The translations under genes and the position numbers were made by a program. Below, piece by piece: positions 43,803 through 53,200 of a DNA stretch of 64,000 nucleotides; position 1 is the stretch's first letter, and each line of letters begins with the position of its first letter. The stretch covers positions 1 through 64,000 of the forward strand of contig NZ_AOCN01000027.1 in assembly GCF_000350525.1 (NCBI RefSeq). Direction: 5' to 3'. This stretch comes from Leucobacter salsicius M1-8. GTDB taxonomy: Bacteria > Actinomycetota > Actinomycetes > Actinomycetales > Microbacteriaceae. The notes beneath the pieces were generated by a model that was not told where the DNA came from, did not search any database, and saw nothing but the letters and a program-made list of their open reading frames with translations.

Positions 43803-44993
43803 ATGGGATTCATCCAGGCATTTACCGGCGCCGTGGGCGGCATGCTCGCAGACCAGTGGCTTGATTTTCTACTGCCGCCAGAGAACTTGGCCCCGACTGC
43901 GGCTCTCTTTCCCGCCGTCGCGAAGGGTCAGAACGCGGGGCGCGGGTCCAATACCCGCGGATCAGAGAACATCATCACGAACGGTTCGAAGATCATCGTG
44001 CCCGAGGGCTACGCCCTCATGACGTTTCAGGACGGCCAGCTCACCGGTTTCATTGCTGACCCGGGCGGGTACGAGTATCGCCCCGATGACCCCCAGTCAC
44101 AGTCGATGTTCGCGGGCGACGGTTTCGTTGCCCCCGTGGTTAAGCAGTCTTGGGAGCGCTTCAAGTTTGGTGGCCAGCCGGCAGCGCAGCAGCTCGGCTT
44201 CTACGTCAGCCTCAAGGAACTTCCTAACAACCGCTTTGGCACCCAGTCCGAAATTTACTGGGATGACGCGTTTCTCGGCACGCAGGTGGGCGCACTCACG
44301 CGCGGCAGCTATACGGCCCGCATCGTCGACCCGATCCTGTTCGTCAAGCAGTTCGTGCCCTACACCTACTACAGCGCCGATGCGCGGATCTTTGATTTCA
44401 CGGATCTCGATAACGACGCTGCCGCCCAGCTGTTCAACGAGGTCGTGTCGTCGCTCGCGCCCGCCTTCTCCGCCTATACGAATGATCCCACCAAGGGCAA
44501 CCGTATGGCCCGCATCCAGAGCGACTCGCTCGGATTCGCACAGTCGCTTTCGGCGGCGGTTGAGGCTGGGTATCAGTGGCGCTCAACGCGAGGGCTCGAG
44601 ATCGTCAGTGTCGCCATTCAGGCGGTCGAGTATGACGAAGATACCCGCAAGCTGCTGAGCGATGTGAAGAAGGCCGATGCGCTTTCGGGCAATCGCGGCG
44701 GGTCGTTCCTGCAGCAGTCGGTGGCGCGCGGCTTTGAGGCCGCGGGCGAGGGGGGCGGCGGCAACATGGCCATGATGGGCATGGGGCTCGGCATGACGGG
44801 CCAGGCGCTGAACTTCCAGCAGCAGCAACCCCCGGCCGCGGCTCCCGCCGCAACCCAGACTGAGGCGGCAGCAGCACCGGCAGCGGCCGAGGATCCGGTC
44901 GCGAAGCTCGCCCAGTACAAGCAGATGCTCGATCAGGGGCTCATCACCGCCGAAGATTTCGAGGCGGCCAAAAAGAAGACGCTCGGGCTGTAA
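43803..44993 (+). CDS. SPFH/virion-core-type protein with C-terminal SHOCT domain
   Basis: A 396-residue cytoplasmic-face membrane scaffold protein. The SPFH domain lies at about residues 40-270 (NIITNGSKIIVPEGYALMTFQDGQLTGFIADPGGYEY and TQVGALTRGSYTARIVDPILFVKQFVP), similar to the Bacillus YdjI and the so-called virion core protein group. A Met/Gly and Gln/Ala-rich linker follows, then a SHOCT motif at the end (VAKLAQYKQMLDQGLITAEDFEAAKKKTLGL). It is the first of three genes, with a zinc-ribbon protein and a small membrane protein. By analogy it takes part in membrane-stress or lipid-domain functions (inference). Confidence 0.87.
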   Translation: MGFIQAFTGAVGGMLADQWLDFLLPPENLAPTAALFPAVAKGQNAGRGSNTRGSENIITNGSKIIVPEGYALMTFQDGQLTGFIADPGGYEYRPDDPQSQSMFAGDGFVAPVVKQSWERFKFGGQPAAQQLGFYVSLKELPNNRFGTQSEIYWDDAFLGTQVGALTRGSYTARIVDPILFVKQFVPYTYYSADARIFDFTDLDNDAAAQLFNEVVSSLAPAFSAYTNDPTKGNRMARIQSDSLGFAQSLSAAVEAGYQWRSTRGLEIVSVAIQAVEYDEDTRKLLSDVKKADALSGNRGGSFLQQSVARGFEAAGEGGGGNMAMMGMGLGMTGQALNFQQQQPPAAAPAATQTEAAAAPAAAEDPVAKLAQYKQMLDQGLITAEDFEAAKKKTLGL

Positions 44994-45059
44994 GCCGCAC
45001 GCGGTCACGCCCGCGGGTAATTGCCCGCGGGCGACACGTCAAGGTTTCAGGGGTGAAGC

Positions 45060-46445
45060 ATGAACGATAACGCCACCTGGGGCGATCCTGGGGCACAGGC
45101 ACCTCCGCCCCAGCCGCAGCAGCCACAGCCACAGCCACAGCCACAGCCAGGCTTTGATCCGGCGCAGCCGCCCATCGATCCGACGCAACAGCAGGCCCCA
45201 GGCCAGTCACCGATCCCGCACCAGCCAACGACCCCGGATCAGTTCCCACCGCCGCAGTTTGAGGAGCCGGACGGGCCCGCCTACATCGATACCTCGAGCG
45301 GCAAGAGCGATGGCCTCGATAAATGCCCCCGCTGCGGATCCACGGAGATTTCCCTGCGCACCCAAACTGGCATGCTGACCTGCCACTTCTGTCGCTATGA
45401 GTGGCACGAGGCCCGCATTGATGAGGCGTTCGCGCTCAACTCCCCCATCGGCGACCTGCGCGGGCGCGTCATCGGCACGGGCGCCGGCACCATTTCCGAG
45501 GACGTATCCGAGGTGCTCACGCTACGGTGCGGGGCCTGCGGGGCCGAGGTTGTCGTGAACACGGGCGAGGCGATGCAGGCGCGCTGCCACTGGTGCCGCA
45601 ACACGCTCTCCGCCTCGGAGCAACTCCCCAACGGCGCGGTGCCCGACGGCGTGCTGCCCTTTAGTGTGACGCGCGAAACGGCCATTGAAAACATCTCCGC
45701 GTTCGTCAAGAGCCGCAAGTTCTTCGCGCATCCCGCCTTCGTGCGCGGGTTCGAACCGACCGAGGTGGTGGGCGTCTACCTGCCCTACCTGGTGGTCGAC
45801 GCGAACGCGCATGCCGAGTTGCACGGTGAAGCCGAGATCGAGACCGGCCGCCGCAGGGTGTCGCGGGGCGACAACGACTCGGTGACCCTGTACGACGCCG
45901 ACGTGTACGACATGAGCCGCAGTTTCGATCTACTCGTTGACGATCTGGTGCTCGAGTCTTCGTCCGAGCGCGCAGACATGTCCATGTTTCGCAACACCAA
46001 CAATGTGATCAACGCGATTCAGCCCTTCGACATCGACGCCACCGTCGCATACAACGCGAACTATCTGCGAGGGTTCACCTCGGAGAAGCGCAACCTCGAC
46101 GTCGACGGCATCATGCCCCGGGCCGCCGACGCGACCCTCTCAATCGCCCGCGTGCGGGCGGGCGAGGCTGCGCAGGCCTATGACCGTGGCATTCGCTGGT
46201 ACCGCGAGGAGCTCACTGTGCACGGCACCCGCTGGGTCTCCGTGTACCTACCGGTATGGCTGTACAGCTACTACCAGCCCCGCGGAGGCGCCGGCCAGGG
46301 CCTCGTCCACTACGTCGCGGTGAACGGTCGCACCGGCGAGACGATGGGCAGCGTCCCCATTCGCCAGGGGCGACTGATCGGCATTTCGGTGGCGATTGGC
46401 ATCGTGGGCACCGTGCTCGGCGGCCTCGCCAGCATCTTCATGTAA
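45060..46445 (+). CDS. Membrane protein with TFIIB-type zinc ribbons (YdjG-like)
   Basis: A 461-residue protein. The N-terminus (about 1-80) is Pro/Gln-rich, with repeats coded by CAGCCA hexamers. The first zinc ribbon is KCPRCGSTEISLRTQTGMLTCHFCRYEW, the second LRCGACGAEVVVNTGEAMQARCHWCRNTL. The long middle (YLPYLVVDANAHAELHGEAEIE ...) is a beta-rich region, and the chain ends in one membrane helix (ISVAIGIVGTVLGGLASIF). This matches the Bacillus YdjG type, which pairs with YdjH and YdjI in PspA-linked envelope stress. It is separated by 66 bases from the SPFH gene. Confidence 0.8.
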   Translation: MNDNATWGDPGAQAPPPQPQQPQPQPQPQPGFDPAQPPIDPTQQQAPGQSPIPHQPTTPDQFPPPQFEEPDGPAYIDTSSGKSDGLDKCPRCGSTEISLRTQTGMLTCHFCRYEWHEARIDEAFALNSPIGDLRGRVIGTGAGTISEDVSEVLTLRCGACGAEVVVNTGEAMQARCHWCRNTLSASEQLPNGAVPDGVLPFSVTRETAIENISAFVKSRKFFAHPAFVRGFEPTEVVGVYLPYLVVDANAHAELHGEAEIETGRRRVSRGDNDSVTLYDADVYDMSRSFDLLVDDLVLESSSERADMSMFRNTNNVINAIQPFDIDATVAYNANYLRGFTSEKRNLDVDGIMPRAADATLSIARVRAGEAAQAYDRGIRWYREELTVHGTRWVSVYLPVWLYSYYQPRGGAGQGLVHYVAVNGRTGETMGSVPIRQGRLIGISVAIGIVGTVLGGLASIFM

Positions 46446-46922: not shown

Positions 46923-46998
46923 GGGTCTGTGGCGCAGTTGGTAGCGCACCTGCATGGCATGCAGGGGGTCAGGGGTTCGAATCCCCTCAGATCCACCA
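46923..46998 (+). tRNA. tRNA-Ala(GGC)
   Basis: A 76-nt gene including an encoded CCA. Acceptor GGGTCTG pairs with CAGATCC (one G-T pair). The D arm is GGCGCAGTTGGTAGCGC, the anticodon stem CCTGC/GCAGG encloses ATGGCAT with anticodon GGC, the variable loop is GGTC, and the T arm is AGGGGTTCGAATCCCCT. All standard positions are present. Confidence 0.97.
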
Positions 46999-47000
46999 TC

Positions 47001-47044
47001 AACTCCCGGTTGCAGAGCTTTTGCCCTCAACCGGGAGTTTTTTG
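47001..47044 (+). terminator. Rho-independent terminator after tRNA-Ala
   Basis: AACTCCCGGTTG (47001-47012) pairs with CAACCGGGAGTT (47028-47039) around a 15-base loop, followed by a T run. It ends only about 20 bases before the jetA start, so little room remains for an independent jetA promoter. Confidence 0.9.
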
Positions 47045-47064
47045 TTTCCCCCTGAATCATCGAG

Positions 47065-48582
47065 GTGATGTCGAACGTGCGTGCCCACGCCGCCTATCAG
47101 CGGGCCACCGCCGCGTTCAAGAACCCTACGCTCGATCTGCTGCACGGCCGCTACGCCCCGTTCGTCGTGGCCGCGCTCTCGCTGGTGTTCACCGCCGATC
47201 GCACCGCCGTGGCGGTCGCCGACGCCCACGTCGAGGTCGGCGAGATGATCGACGAACTGCGGGTGGGCGGCTATGCCGACCTCGAGCCAGGGCTACCCGC
47301 AGGCAGCGGGCGGGAGATCTGCCGCTACTGGGTGCGGGTGGGCTGGCTCGTGCCCCAGATCGAAGACGGGGCCGAGGTCTACCGGCTTTCAGCTCAGGCT
47401 GTTGGTGCCCTCGAGATCGCCGGCCGCGCCGGCGGCGGGCGCGTATCGCGCTCGCGCGTGCGCACTCTGCTCGAATCGGTGGATCAGTTGGCCCAGCACG
47501 CAGAGACCGATCCGGATCTGCGCCTCGCTCACCTCGCCGCTCAGCGGGCCGAGCTTGATGCCGAGATGGATCGCCTGCAGGCTGGCGAAGTGGAGGAGGC
47601 CGACGACGAGCTGCTGCTCGAGGAGGCCGAGAACGTGCTGCACCTTGCGCGCGAGCTCCCCGCAGACTTCTCCCGTGTGGCCGAGTCCATCAACGCGATG
47701 CAGCGCGACGTCGTCGCAGACCTGCGCCGCGACGTGCGCCCGGCTGGTGAGGTGCTGCGCGAGTACCTGCACCGCGGCCAACACGTCATGCAGGCCACGC
47801 CCGAGGGGCGCGCGTTCGCCGGCGCACTCAGGCTTATCGGCGACCCCGAGCACATCGACGAGCTCACCGATCAGGTACACGAGCTGCTCGCCAAGCCGTT
47901 CTCACGGCTCCTCGATGCGGCGCAGCGCGAGGAACTCAGCGCGATCGCCAAACGCGTGGAGCAGGGCGTCCAGGAGGTACTCACGGCCCAGCGCCGCGCC
48001 TCCCACGTCATCACCGCCCAGGTGCGCACCCACGACCCCGCCCGAGATCGCGAGGTCGACGATCTGCTCCGCGGCGTCATGTCAGGGCTCCAGTCCTGGA
48101 TGCGAGTGTCCAAGCCCGCCGACCGGGTGACCCCGCTCGAACACTTCCCCACCGCCCACATCGGCCATCTACGGCAGACGCTGAGCGATCCGCGGCCGCC
48201 TCGCGGCCCGGCCCCCCTGGTACACGCCGCCGATGTCCTCGACGCCGCGAGCGTGAGCGAGGGAGACGCGCGTGCCTGGGGCGGACCCGATTACCCGGAG
48301 CTCGAAGCTCACGTGGCGGGCCTCGGCGACTCGTTCGACCTCGGTGACGCGTTCGGTTCCTCGGGCACCCGTCGCCCCGTGGACCTACTCGGGCTCCTCG
48401 AGATCGTGCATCGCGGCGGGATGACCGAGCGCGAGGACATCTCGGTGGTCACCGCCCAGCGCCCCGACGGCACCACCCGCAAGTTCGCCTTCGTTGCGGT
48501 GCAGGCCGACAACACACCGGCAGACACCGCAGACTCTGACTCCGCAACACCGAACTCCCCGAAGGGCCCCTCGCATGTTTGA
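47065..48582 (+). CDS. jetA: JetA / MksF-like condensin subunit (DUF3375)
   Basis: A 505-residue DUF3375 protein, the kleisin-like subunit of Wadjet (JetA) and MksBEF-type condensins. Family parts are the N-terminal winged-helix block [38 protein letters not shown], the helical middle ([26 protein letters not shown]), and [25 protein letters not shown]. With JetB and JetC it forms the DNA-loading motor. It begins with GTG 47065 or the adjacent ATG 47068 after CGAGG; either fits. Its 3' end overlaps jetB by eight bases. It directly follows the tRNA-Ala terminator. Confidence 0.9.
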
Positions 48583-49378
48583 ACCCACCCCCGCGACGCC
48601 CCCAGTCGAGGCGCTCGACAGCGAGGCTTCCAACACCACGACGCCCGGCATTGATCTCACGGACAGCACCGATCCGTTCGTCACCCCGGTGTCGATGGAA
48701 CAGGATCCGGATCAGGCCTTTGCCGGCGACCGCGGCTCGCTCGCTCCCGAGGTGCGTCGCGTACTCGTGCGTCTGCTGCAGCGCCGGTTCTTGCTCGCGG
48801 ATCGCAATAGCGAGGACTGGGCCGTGCTGCTCGAACATCAGCAGATCATCGAGTCGCGCCTGCACGACCTGTTCGTGCGCCTGGTCGTAGACCCTGCACG
48901 CGGCGTCGCGTACAAGCAGCAGGTGCGCTCCGAGGAGCTCGACGTGCCGATCTTGCTGCGGGACGAGGCGTACACCCGGGCCGAGACGCTCGTACTCGTC
49001 TACCTGCGGACGGTGTTTCAGCGCGAGTCGACCGCGGGCGAGCCATCGGTGCGCATCGACGTCGAGGAGATCGAGCAGACCGTGCTCACTTACTTCACCG
49101 CGGCAGACGGCGACATTGCGCGGCGCCAGAAGGCGGTGCGCGCCGCGCTCGCCCGGCTGCGGCAGGAGGGCATCGTCACCGAGGAATCCGAGGGCCGCTA
49201 TCTGGTCAGCTCGCTCGTGGAGATCGTGCTGAGCGCCGATCGCCTGCGCGAGCTCTCAGACTGGCTGCGGCAGCAGACCGCGGCCGCCCAGCGCCCCACC
49301 ACGGCCTCCGCAGATTCGAACTCCGCGGACACCCCCTCCGCGCCCCTGCTTGATCCCCGAGGAGACCACACACTGTGA
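48575..49378 (+). CDS. jetB: JetB / MksE-like condensin subunit (DUF4194)
   Basis: A 267-residue DUF4194 protein, the kite-type winged-helix dimer of the Wadjet/Mks complex. Conserved pieces are [70 protein letters not shown] and [34 protein letters not shown]. The first ~60 residues are low-complexity. The ATG at 48575 ([10 protein letters not shown]) has GAAGGG ahead; the frame extends upstream to 48494 inside jetA. The stop overlaps the jetC GTG by four bases, giving coupled translation of all three subunits. Confidence 0.9.
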
Positions 49379-52300
49379 CCATGCTCGACACCCTCTTCGG
49401 CCTGATTCCCGCGGCTTCACGGGGCCAGCAGTGGCTCGCGCACGAGCTGCAGCTCGTCAACTGGGGCGGCTACGACGGCGCGCACCGGGTGCGCTTCTCC
49501 CCCGGCGCGACGCTGCTGTGCGGCGGCTCCGGATCGGGCAAGTCGACGCTCATGGACGCGTACATCGCCCTCATGATGCCGCACACCACCCCTTTCAACG
49601 GCGCATCAAACGGTGGCGTCACGGGCCGCCCGCGCGGCGAAGACCAGCGCAACATCCTCTCCTACGGGCGCGGCAAGATCGATGAGACCCGCACCGAGCA
49701 GGGCACGCGGGTACGCGTCATGCGCGGTGATGACACCGACACGTGGACCGCGATTGCGATGACCTGGGTCGACCACGACGGCTCGAAGTTCACCGCAGTG
49801 CGCGCCTGGTACATTCCCGCTGGCGCACGCGTCGTCGAGGACACCGTGCGGGTGCGCGCGAGCGTCGACGGCGCGTTCGACCTCGCAGATCTCGCCCCCG
49901 CGGCCGCGCAGCGCCTCAGCGACGCCCAGGTGCGCGCCTGCGGACTCGAGACCGTGGCGACCGACCGCGAGTTCACCGCCAAGCTTCACTCAGTGCTCGG
50001 CATCGGGGCAGCTGGTGCGGGTGCGAAGGCGATGAGCTTGCTCGCCCGTATCCAGGCCGGCCAGCAGATCACCACGGTCGACGAACTCTACAAGCGCATG
50101 GTGCTCGAGGAGCCCGAGACCATGGCTGCGGCGGACGCGGTCGTCGCGCACTTCGACGAGCTCGAGGGCACCCGCACGCGCATGGTCACCGCGCAGCGGC
50201 AGGTGCACGCGCTGCGCCCGATCCGCACCATTCGCACCCGCATCGACGAGGCCTTCGACCGGCTGCGCATTCTCGACGAGGTCGGTCAGCTCACCGACCC
50301 CGCGTCGCTCGCCTCCCTCTGGCGCGCCGAGCACCGCCTCCGGCTGCTGCGCGAGACCGAGGCGGCGCTGCAGCGCGCGAAAAGCACCGCCGACGCAGCC
50401 GTCCGCGAGCAGCAGGCACTCGCGGACGCCGCAGAGGCCGAGCGCGACGGACTCGTGGAGGTGCTGCGCGGGGCGGGCGGCGAACGCCTCGAATCCGCCG
50501 AGCGCGAGCTACGCGACGTGGAACGCCGCCTCGCGTCCGTACAGCAGGCACGCGTGCGCGTGCGGGCGCTGTGCGAGGCCCTGGGTGAAGACGTGGCCAC
50601 TCGCGCCAGCTTCGAGAAGCTCGTGAAGCGCGCCCGCACCGCCCTCACGAGCGACGATGCGAAGTCGGCCGCCCGCGACACCTACGCCGAGGCACGCGCG
50701 GCCTCCCGCGCCGCTGAGACGCTCGTGGCGGCTCTCGAGGCCGACCTGACCCAACTGGCCGGCCAGAACGACAATATTCCGCCCGCACTGCACGAGGCGC
50801 GCGCCGTGCTCGCGCAGGCCGCCGGGATCGACCCTGGCGATCTCCCCTTCGTGGGCGAGCTCGTCGAGGTGCGTGCCGAGTACGAGCCGTGGCGTGATGC
50901 CTTCGGGCTCGCCCTGGGCGGCTTCGCCACGACCATTCTCGTCGACCAGGATCGGGTACCCGCGTTCCGCGGCGCGATCAACGACGTCCAAACTCGCGTC
51001 CGTGTGCGCTACGAGGGGGTCCCCACCGAGCAGCCCCGTCGCACGGGCCTCGACCCCGTCTCTTTGCCGGGGCGCCTCGACTACCGCGATTCCACCTTCA
51101 CCGGCTGGCTGCAGGAGCGACTCGAACAGCAGTTCGGGTTCGTGTGCGTCACCGAACCCGGTGAACTGGGCAAGCACGCGCAAGCCATCACCATCACGGG
51201 CCAGCTCACCCGCGGCCGCCGCGGCTCGCACGGCGGGCACGGGCGCGCGAGCGTGCTGGGGTTCTCGAATCAGCGCCGGATCGAAGAGCTCACCGACGAG
51301 ATCCTGTCGGCTCGGGCCGACCAGGCCGAGGCTGTCGAACGCGAGCGCGCGGCGGCGGCCGCCCTCGACCGCCTCGACGAGCGTCAGGCAGCGTTCGCGA
51401 AGCTCGCAGAGACGTCGTGGGACGACATCGACGAAGCCAGCGTTGAAGCCGAGCGCGAGCGCTGGACCGGCATCATCGCCGAGGCCGCTGCCGGAAGCTC
51501 CGAGATCTCGGGCCTCCAGCAGCAGATCGCGGCCGCAAAGCGCAAGGTAGCCAAGCTCCAGCAGGCGATCGGCCGCGCGCACAGCGACCAGGAGCGGGCT
51601 GCATCCCAGTGGGCCGACATTACCGACGAGGTCGACCTCGCCCAGGGCCTCGTCGATGCAGCCGAGGATGACGGGCGCAAGCTCTCCCCCGCCCAGGCGG
51701 CCTATCTCGGTGACCGCTTCACCCCCGAGACCGATGCAGCGGCCGACGGTGTGCCGAGCACCCGTACCCTCGCACGCTTCGACGCCGCGCTGGAGGCCGC
51801 CTCACGGCAGCTGTCTGACGACCGCCGCACGGCCAAGGAGTCCCTCGTCGATCAGCGCGAGGCCCTCAGCCGCACGCTCGAGCGCTTCCTCGAGAACTGG
51901 CCCAACCCGAACCTGCGGGCAGACCCCGATTCGTCGCTGCCCGACTTCGAGCGGATCCTGGCCGAACTCGAGGCGAGCGGATTGCACGAGCTTGAGGCGG
52001 AGTGGAAAGATAGTCTCCTCAATCTCTCGGGCAATGACCTGACAAGCCTCGATTCTTCCCTGGGGCGGGCGCTGCGCGAGATCCGCGAGCGTATCGAGCC
52101 CATCAACCAGATCATGCGCGATCTCCCGTTCTACGACGACGATCACCGCCTGCAGATCACGCCGCGGGAGCACCAGAGTGACGCACGTCGCCGCTTCCGC
52201 CGTGAACTGCGCGACGTGCGCGGGCTCATCGTTTCGGCTGCCACCGAAGAGGAGCGCGAGCGCGCCTACGGCCGCATGGAGCGCTTGATCGGGCGGATCC

Positions 52301-52731
52301 GGCGCAGCTCACCCGATTTCTCCGAACTTATTGACGTGCGCAATCACGTGCGCGTGAGTGCCGAGAAGGTGCATGCCGTAACTGGAGCCCATGCGGCGCT
52401 CTACGATCACATCGGTGAGAAGTCGGGCGGCGAGTCCCAAGAGCTGATCGCGTTCATTGTGGGCGCCGCGCTGCGATACCAGCTGGGTGACGCTGGCTCG
52501 GAACGCCCACGGTACGCACCGGTGTTCCTCGACGAGGCACTCATCAAGGCTGACGCGCACTTCACGAAGCGCGCCATTGGGGCTTGGCGCGGGCTGGGCT
52601 TCCAACTCGTGATCGGTGCACCCAACGACAAGTACAGCGCCATCGAGCCACACGTGGACGTCGAATATGCCATTCTCAAGGACACCCAGGGTCGATCCTG
52701 GGCGAAGCCGAAGGTCGGATTGGCCAACTAA
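49375..52731 (+). CDS. jetC: JetC / MksB-like SMC ATPase
   Basis: A 1118-residue SMC/MukB-like motor. The head begins with [40 protein letters not shown] (Walker A). Two long coiled coils, about residues 290-470 and 640-800, flank a hinge-like globular part ([32 protein letters not shown] ... FALVDQD-type core). The C-terminal head has [23 protein letters not shown] (signature) and [39 protein letters not shown] (Walker B, D-loop). ATP-dependent loop extrusion is the family role. No jetD follows: the next gene is rsfS on the other strand. Confidence 0.92.
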
Positions 52732-52737
52732 ACGACA

Positions 52738-52769
52738 ACGCGCGGCCTCCCCGAAGGGAGGCCGCGCGT
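52738..52769. terminator. GC-rich hairpin between convergent jetC and rsfS
   Basis: A 14-bp perfect stem (52738-52751 with 52756-52769) closes a CGAA loop. There is no long T run, but its place between convergent stops fits a bidirectional terminator. Confidence 0.78.
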
Positions 52770-52786
52770 GTATTGTGCGTGGGGAC

Positions 52787-53200
52787 TTACTGAGCAGTCA
52801 TCAGGCTTTCGATTTCCATGACCGGGCAGTCCTGCCACAGACGCTCGAGCTGGTAGAAGTCGCGTTCTTCGTTGTGGAAGATGTGCACCATAATGTCGCC
52901 GAAGTCGAGCAGCACCCAGCGGCCGGTTGCCCGACCCTCGCGCCGGATGGTGCGAATGCCAGCGGCATTCATCTCGTCTTCGATCTCGTCTGAGATGGCC
53001 TGCACGTTGCGCTCAACGCTACCCGTGAGGACGAGAAACACGTCGGCGAGGCCGAAGTGCTCTGCCACGTCGAGCGCGACCGGCTCGGTGGCGCCCTTAG
53101 AGTCGGCGGCGCGCAGGGCAACGCCCAGCGCCTCTCGGACCTGCTGGCTGTGGCTTGCTTCGTTATTCAGGGGGTGCTCCCGTAGTAGTGATGATGACAT
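52787..53200 (-). CDS. rsfS: Ribosome silencing factor RsfS
   Basis: A 137-residue RsfS (DUF143/Iojap) protein, which binds large ribosomal subunit protein L14 and blocks joining of the subunits when nutrients are low. Conserved blocks are EPVALDVAEHFGLADVFLVLTGSVERNVQAISDEIEDEM, GRATGRWVLLDFGDIMVHIFHNEERDFYQLERLWQDCP. The ATG at 53200 begins MSSSLLREHPLNNEASHS; the longer frame to 53290 reaches into the neighbouring gene. It is the last gene of the nadD-linked block and converges on jetC. Confidence 0.94.
   Translation of the reverse strand: MSSSLLREHPLNNEASHSQQVREALGVALRAADSKGATEPVALDVAEHFGLADVFLVLTGSVERNVQAISDEIEDEMNAAGIRTIRREGRATGRWVLLDFGDIMVHIFHNEERDFYQLERLWQDCPVMEIESLMTAQ

Follow-up and report, generated by a model that had tools for sequence, protein, structure and literature searches.

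The locus described here raises the question of what a Wadjet motor does in a cell without the Wadjet nuclease. It lies in a 64,000-nucleotide stretch of Leucobacter salsicius M1-8 (contig NZ_AOCN01000027.1, positions 1 to 64,000, called the window below) and consists of the genes jetA, jetB and jetC, with no jetD behind jetC. As presented in the parts of the two sources consulted, JetABC detects DNA circles through loop extrusion and JetD cuts them (PMC10586767; PMC12287153), and the first of them describes all four subunits of the Bacillus subtilis Wadjet as needed against plasmids (PMC10586767). We consider it reasonably probable that the Leucobacter JetABC derives from a type I Wadjet whose lineage lost jetD, and that the motor was kept as a stand-alone, nuclease-free SMC (structural maintenance of chromosomes) machine. 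The genes and their downstream flank are the following.

47065 to 48582, + strand: jetA, kleisin, DUF3375; start GTG 47065 or ATG 47068
48575 to 49378, + strand: jetB, KITE protein, DUF4194; likely start ATG 48575, from a reading of the frame
49375 to 52731, + strand: jetC, MukB-like SMC ATPase of 1118 amino acids, start GTG 49375; Walker A at residues 50-58, SGGE at 1017-1020, Walker B at 1050-1054
52738 to 52769, no strand assigned: perfect 14-bp hairpin in the jetC/rsfS interval, from repeat and pattern scans
52787 to 53176, - strand: rsfS (PF02410), a housekeeping flank outside the system

By sequence the three proteins are type I Wadjet subunits. Pfam models matched JetA (DUF3375, 363 bits), JetB (DUF4194, 138.4 bits) and JetC (SbcC_Walker_B, 75.6 bits), the PADLOC models JetA1, JetB1 and JetC1 scored 684, 360 and 1621 bits, and the nearest solved structures were Wadjet subunits (JetA 9qxt/8q72/8dk1/8as8, JetB 8as8, JetC 8dk2). 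Walker A, SGGE and Walker B of JetC were invariant across 18 aligned sequences; by these intact motifs JetC is a putative active SMC ATPase. All three genes lie on the + strand, with overlaps of about 8 nt between jetA and jetB and about 4 nt between jetB and jetC, and JetB carries an N-terminal motif which, judged by eye, is common to its relatives. The original prediction of intact, overlapping jetA, jetB and jetC with motor motifs after a tRNA-Ala gene was thus borne out by Pfam, PADLOC and the JetC motif alignment, as was the hairpin followed by opposite-strand rsfS in place of jetD. Gene order, overlap and sequence are those of type I Wadjet (JetABCD/MksBEFG/EptABCD), and jetD-bearing loci sit in the same JetC clade as the window; the difference is that no JetD was found at the Leucobacter locus or in its genome. 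Pseudomonas aeruginosa MksBEF resembles the locus in being an operon of kleisin, KITE and SMC genes that lacks the toprim nuclease MksG/JetD, in a cell that also has Smc-ScpAB. The window proteins do, however, score far better with type I Jet models: JetB passed the MksE model with 28.4 bits (cut-off 27) but reached 138.4 bits with DUF4194, and JetC gave 21.6 bits with the MukB N-terminal model, below its cut-off of 23, against 1621 bits with JetC1.

No JetD was found to go with JetABC, either at the locus or elsewhere in the genome. The genome measures 3.19 Mb in 28 contigs and is 100% complete; neither PF09983 (JetD_C) nor PF11795 (DUF3322) matched anywhere in it with E-values of up to 0.001, while both matched in the positive control, C. 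glutamicum. A JetD profile hidden Markov model built from 12 jetD-bearing clade members gave no match in the same genome at E up to 1. Among 54 genomes of the genus, DUF3375 was found in 24 and JetD_C in four. Window-type JetABC was present in 20 of the 54 (partial copies in G016 and G038), and the JetC of the other 19 was 66-79% identical to that of the window. Five further genus loci were of other kinds, about 25% identical, one of them in G015 beside a window-type copy. Each of the four genus JetD genes followed a jetA of these other kinds at a distance of about 6 kb; the fifth such locus (G034) stops at a contig edge, and G034 had no JetD match. At E < 0.1 the clade JetD profile found the same four genomes with a JetABCD of another kind and none further. 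The 28 contigs of the genome might suggest that the Wadjet is complete and its jetD was overlooked because of an assembly gap or divergence, yet a single 91-kb contig spans the locus, rsfS following directly, and no JetD was found in 19 of the 20 genus genomes with a window-clade copy, among them four single-contig assemblies (G001, G003, G004, G021). We regard this explanation as very improbable.

The jetD-less state is common among relatives and not a local accident. For the JetC alignment search the best 80 of 179 confirmed relatives were kept, so that near relatives are favoured in the clade count; the 80 belonged to Leucobacter, Microbacterium, Corynebacterium, Tessaracoccus, Gulosibacter, Rathayibacter, Nocardioides, Cellulomonas, Actinomadura, Nocardia, Actinoplanes and other genera, and jetD stood directly behind jetC in 19 of the 80, as found with a JetD model whose first ~75 positions represent the jetC overlap and were ignored. 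Adding nine genus loci and the loci of a family search (six jetD-less, two jetD-bearing), and leaving 13 duplicates and eight loci that end early (L036, L050, L054, L083, L091, L094, L102, L206) outside the count, the window JetC clade comprised 93 placed loci: 71 without jetD, 21 with jetD and one with a broken jetD. The original prediction had proposed to compare related genomes for a jetD that is present, absent or reduced to a scar; present, absent and broken states all occur within one clade. The window itself falls inside a starred group of 28 rows on the JetC tree, every row of which is without jetD. In the family, 70 genomes carried DUF3375 and 40 loci were taken, mostly with lower JetA scores, which makes this no fair sample of jetD frequency; high-scoring family JetA copies mostly share a contig with JetD, with exceptions such as G302.

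The jetD-less copies are intact and under purifying selection. Walker A, SGGE and Walker B were kept in all 71 jetD-less JetC, and JetA and JetB were open in 70 of the 71 loci; the exception, L048, has an open 252-aa jetB frame, and its flag is probably an alignment artefact. Ratios of nonsynonymous to synonymous substitution rates (dN/dS) for JetC spanned 0.034-0.127 among 12 close deep-clade pairs (L067, the locus with the broken jetD, being a member of one), 0.125-0.131 for two pairs from Nocardioides, 0.126-0.180 for three mixed pairs and 0.17-0.32 for six pairs with jetD, and those for JetA (0.05-0.31) and JetB (0.04-0.27) also lay well below 1; all are Nei-Gojobori values without codon-bias correction from GC-rich genomes of differing composition, and their sign alone was used. 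The original prediction had offered a decaying defence system as one option, taken here as a Wadjet caught after the loss of jetD. Broken and partial copies do exist: the jetD of Microbacterium helvum (L067), a jetA with an in-frame TAA in G374, a remnant in G310 and fragments in G056 (L182), the last three being evidence that decay does befall other Wadjet copies. Against this stand the kept motifs and open frames, the group of 28 rows entirely without jetD and dN/dS values far below 1, and we hold decay to be quite improbable for the window. Since many relatives keep the cutter-free motor intact, the motor probably has a job of its own.

How jetD came to be absent was followed on two JetC trees, both quickly built, the larger of which carries a long-branch warning. 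The 89-row tree requires a minimum of 10 changes of jetD state (starred branches force 9), against a mean of 20.6 after shuffling; the 130-row tree has 14 changes, all 14 forced, with a shuffled mean of 30.2. We infer that most of these changes were losses. Direct sequence comparison comes from an Actinomadura pair, the jetD-bearing GC306 (L121) and the jetD-less A. livida (L133), which share the same locus, the flanks beyond being 87-91% identical. In A. livida about 1.1 kb of jetD is gone, and what remains by BLAST is about 29 nt behind jetC and about 51 nt of the jetD end; a global alignment put the gap elsewhere, and the BLAST placement was used. This is an in-place absence of jetD and a direct sign of loss. 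In M. helvum the remnant of jetD behind an open jetABC is split between two frames (L067:11835-13312). A Cellulomonas pair (L120, L125) has the far flank in common, with a more rearranged locus, and in Schumannella a jetD-bearing locus (L185) and its close jetD-less relative (L186) are 91.7% identical over the 6.0 kb of jetABC and diverge past the end of jetC.

Several points weigh against the retention of a stand-alone motor after loss of jetD. State-change counts on a tree cannot separate loss from gain, and the direct signs of loss are confined to two cases, L067 with its broken jetD and the Actinomadura pair. Early decay is conceivable for several jetD-less rows that are tips of the tree (Actinomadura, Cellulomonas, Actinoplanes). 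The dN/dS values, as said, speak by their sign and not by their size. The N-terminal stretch of JetB is, by eye, as conserved without JetD as with JetD, and may still dock a partner. The steady flanks of a second jetD-less JetC clade look more like those of a resident chromosomal function. In this clade, from Microbacteriaceae and about 35-39% identical to the JetC of the window, 21 of 24 rows are jetD-less (L194, L197-L201, L203-L205, L207, L209-L218, L222); two of the three jetD-bearing rows sit on long branches, and the flanks are genus-typical, being similar within several genera. A third group of three rows (L219-L221), with JetC about 29-30% identical to that of the window, is jetD-less throughout.

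The conserved JetB stretch leads to the question whether cutting is done by another protein. The original prediction had considered a nuclease coded elsewhere, and for JetD this is not supported: among 57 whole-searched genomes with a jetD-less copy, 49 had no JetD, seven had it in a separate JetABCD and one had fragments. The 57 genomes were drawn from a search of 49 of the genomes of the best 80 relatives, the 20 genus genomes (one with JetD in a second system) and seven family-sample genomes (none with JetD). In the 49-genome search 26 genomes had JetD_C, 19 of them beside the clade jetC; in six of the other seven JetD stood beside its own, different JetABC, and the last held only fragments (G056, L182). 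A defence system that cuts through an unrelated nuclease in trans would fit the conserved JetB N-terminus, and jetABC is patchy and laterally distributed like a defence gene. Nevertheless, across the jetD-less loci no neighbour other than jetD held a fixed place, and the genes behind jetC varied between genera. In a comparison of 85 loci the most widespread neighbour family occurred at 15, at scattered kilobase distances, and only jetD recurred right behind jetC; the neighbour gene caller was crude and some of its frames are antisense artefacts. JetD-like proteins of the genus at E < 0.1, moreover, were confined to the four genomes with JetABCD of another kind. We therefore judge a nuclease in trans unlikely, if less so than decay. 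An IFDR motif of JetB is described as a JetD contact in the part of the source consulted (PMC10586767); it was not present verbatim in the inspected JetB stretches, jetD-bearing and jetD-less alike.

What the retained motor acts on was approached through its distribution. The window-type jetABC is patchy, being found at varied genomic sites in the 20 genus genomes that have it, and the JetC gene tree mixes genera; jetABC has spread laterally. In topology tests, with groups named after the tree was seen, Microbacterium as a single JetC clade was rejected (p of the approximately unbiased test, p-AU, 1e-8), and Leucobacter weakly so (p 0.024). No window-clade JetC was found in 72,556 plasmid records (best identity 39.5%) or in 50,697 phage records (one match, 28.1%), and a scan of viral contigs confirmed none. 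ScpA was detected in 51 of the 54 genus genomes, in all 45 good ones and in the L. salsicius genome itself; JetABC is therefore additional to the normal condensin. It shares the architecture of SMC, kleisin and KITE with Smc-ScpAB, from which it differs as a separate gene set.

These data bear on the strongest rival, an accessory condensin that organises or segregates the chromosome beside Smc-ScpAB, as is held for P. aeruginosa MksBEF. Purifying selection on jetABC would suit such a role, as would the second jetD-less clade with its similar flanks within several genera. The restricted occurrence of jetABC at differing loci and its mixing between genera speak against it and set it apart from MksBEF. 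The presence of ScpA in every good genus genome also speaks against it, and the JetD-bearing MksBEFG of C. glutamicum affects plasmids and not chromosome organisation, as stated in the part of the source at hand (PMC7083940). We hold the condensin role to be a serious possibility that falls short of even chances. The nuclease-free loop extruder of the original prediction fits best, but its chromosome-organising role is just one option in view of a patchy, laterally spread locus in cells with ScpA.

For the stand-alone motor derived from Wadjet, the following course of action can be proposed. Dimers of JetC, with the JetA kleisin and the JetB KITE protein closing them, would load on DNA and reel in loops using ATP, and on reaching the end of a small circle they would not cut. 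Such extrusion without cutting is expected from the published roles of JetABC, which senses circles by extrusion, and of JetD, which does the cutting. JetABC would then hold, compact or silence incoming circular DNA, which on present sequence comparisons appears more likely than chromosome organisation, because jetABC is patchy, spread across genera and added to cells with ScpA. The choice between foreign DNA and chromosome as target is drawn from distribution: the patchy, mobile pattern leans to foreign DNA, while the fixed-looking second clade leans to the chromosome. Eukaryotic Smc5/6 is likewise a KITE-type SMC complex that acts on extrachromosomal DNA, which is an analogy of action and no claim of membership; compaction of circular DNA with no nuclease involved has been suggested for it, according to the part of the source consulted (PMC10586767).

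Tentatively, and as a proposition that we think rather less probable than its negation, the Actinomycetota might possess a nuclease-free SMC immunity that is widespread and moves horizontally, in which JetABC shed JetD several times independently and restrains small circular DNA by loop extrusion alone. Such restraint would block replication, transcription or partition of the circles and would be a bacterial counterpart of Smc5/6 on episomes. The Wadjet motor and nuclease are regarded as a single unit; these genomes retain the motor alone, in several branches and under selection. The jetD-bearing sisters and the jetD-less strains form a natural experiment on JetABC acting alone, and their comparison also informs on how SMC complexes shift between defence and chromosome work. 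A route from defence to chromosome by loss of JetD was proposed for MksBEF and MukBEF, as given in the accessible part of PMC10586767, and the portions of the literature consulted on this route held no comparable recent case. No paper on jetD-less JetABC in Actinomycetota was found by title or start of abstract in a search whose coverage excludes most subscription papers, which is weak evidence of novelty.

Two features lie upstream of jetA and touch the question of how the locus arrived and how it is expressed.

46923 to 46998, + strand: tRNA-Ala (anticodon ggc), called by ARAGORN
47001 to 47045, + strand: terminator-like hairpin between tRNA-Ala and jetA, fold -25.5 kcal/mol, from sequence and folding and missing from the pattern-scan output

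The original prediction had called the position after tRNA-Ala a typical island entry point, and this stands in part. In 9 of 61 scanned jetD-less loci jetA lies less than 600 bp behind a same-strand tRNA gene, the nine not all being independent, against a rough chance expectation of well under one (assuming about 50 tRNA genes in 3.3 Mb). The attachment-like repeats of an island, however, were absent: a search of the window stretch and of 12 further loci near tRNA genes gave no duplicate of a tRNA 3' end of at least 14 nt. No integrase family appeared among the 14 window proteins run on Pfam, a profile scan which covered the window only. The gene rsfS was found in 52 of the 54 genus genomes. 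Among 20 other genus rsfS regions, 16 have tRNA-Ala and rsfS on one strand, separated by 77-153 bp. The remaining four (L159, L166, L167, L174) have a flipped tRNA-Ala at a distance of 1.3-6.9 kb. The window likewise shows tRNA-Ala flipped relative to rsfS, with jetABC in between (46923-53176). The tRNA-Ala/rsfS gap may be an insertion hotspot. A simple insertion cannot be deduced from this arrangement, with the tRNA gene flipped and jetABC in between.

The hairpin 3' of tRNA-Ala ends about 20 nt upstream of the jetA start (interval 46998-47068). This leaves little space for a separate promoter, and expression of jetABC may depend on read-through. A terminator-like hairpin ahead of jetA was also present in 7 of 8 other tRNA-near loci that were folded; L100 had none by the rule used. 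Just upstream of the system, at 43803-46442, lie two genes, one for an SPFH/SHOCT protein and one whose product matches a zinc ribbon weakly; among the 24 genus loci compared, the pair recurs at the locus only in G015 (L048).

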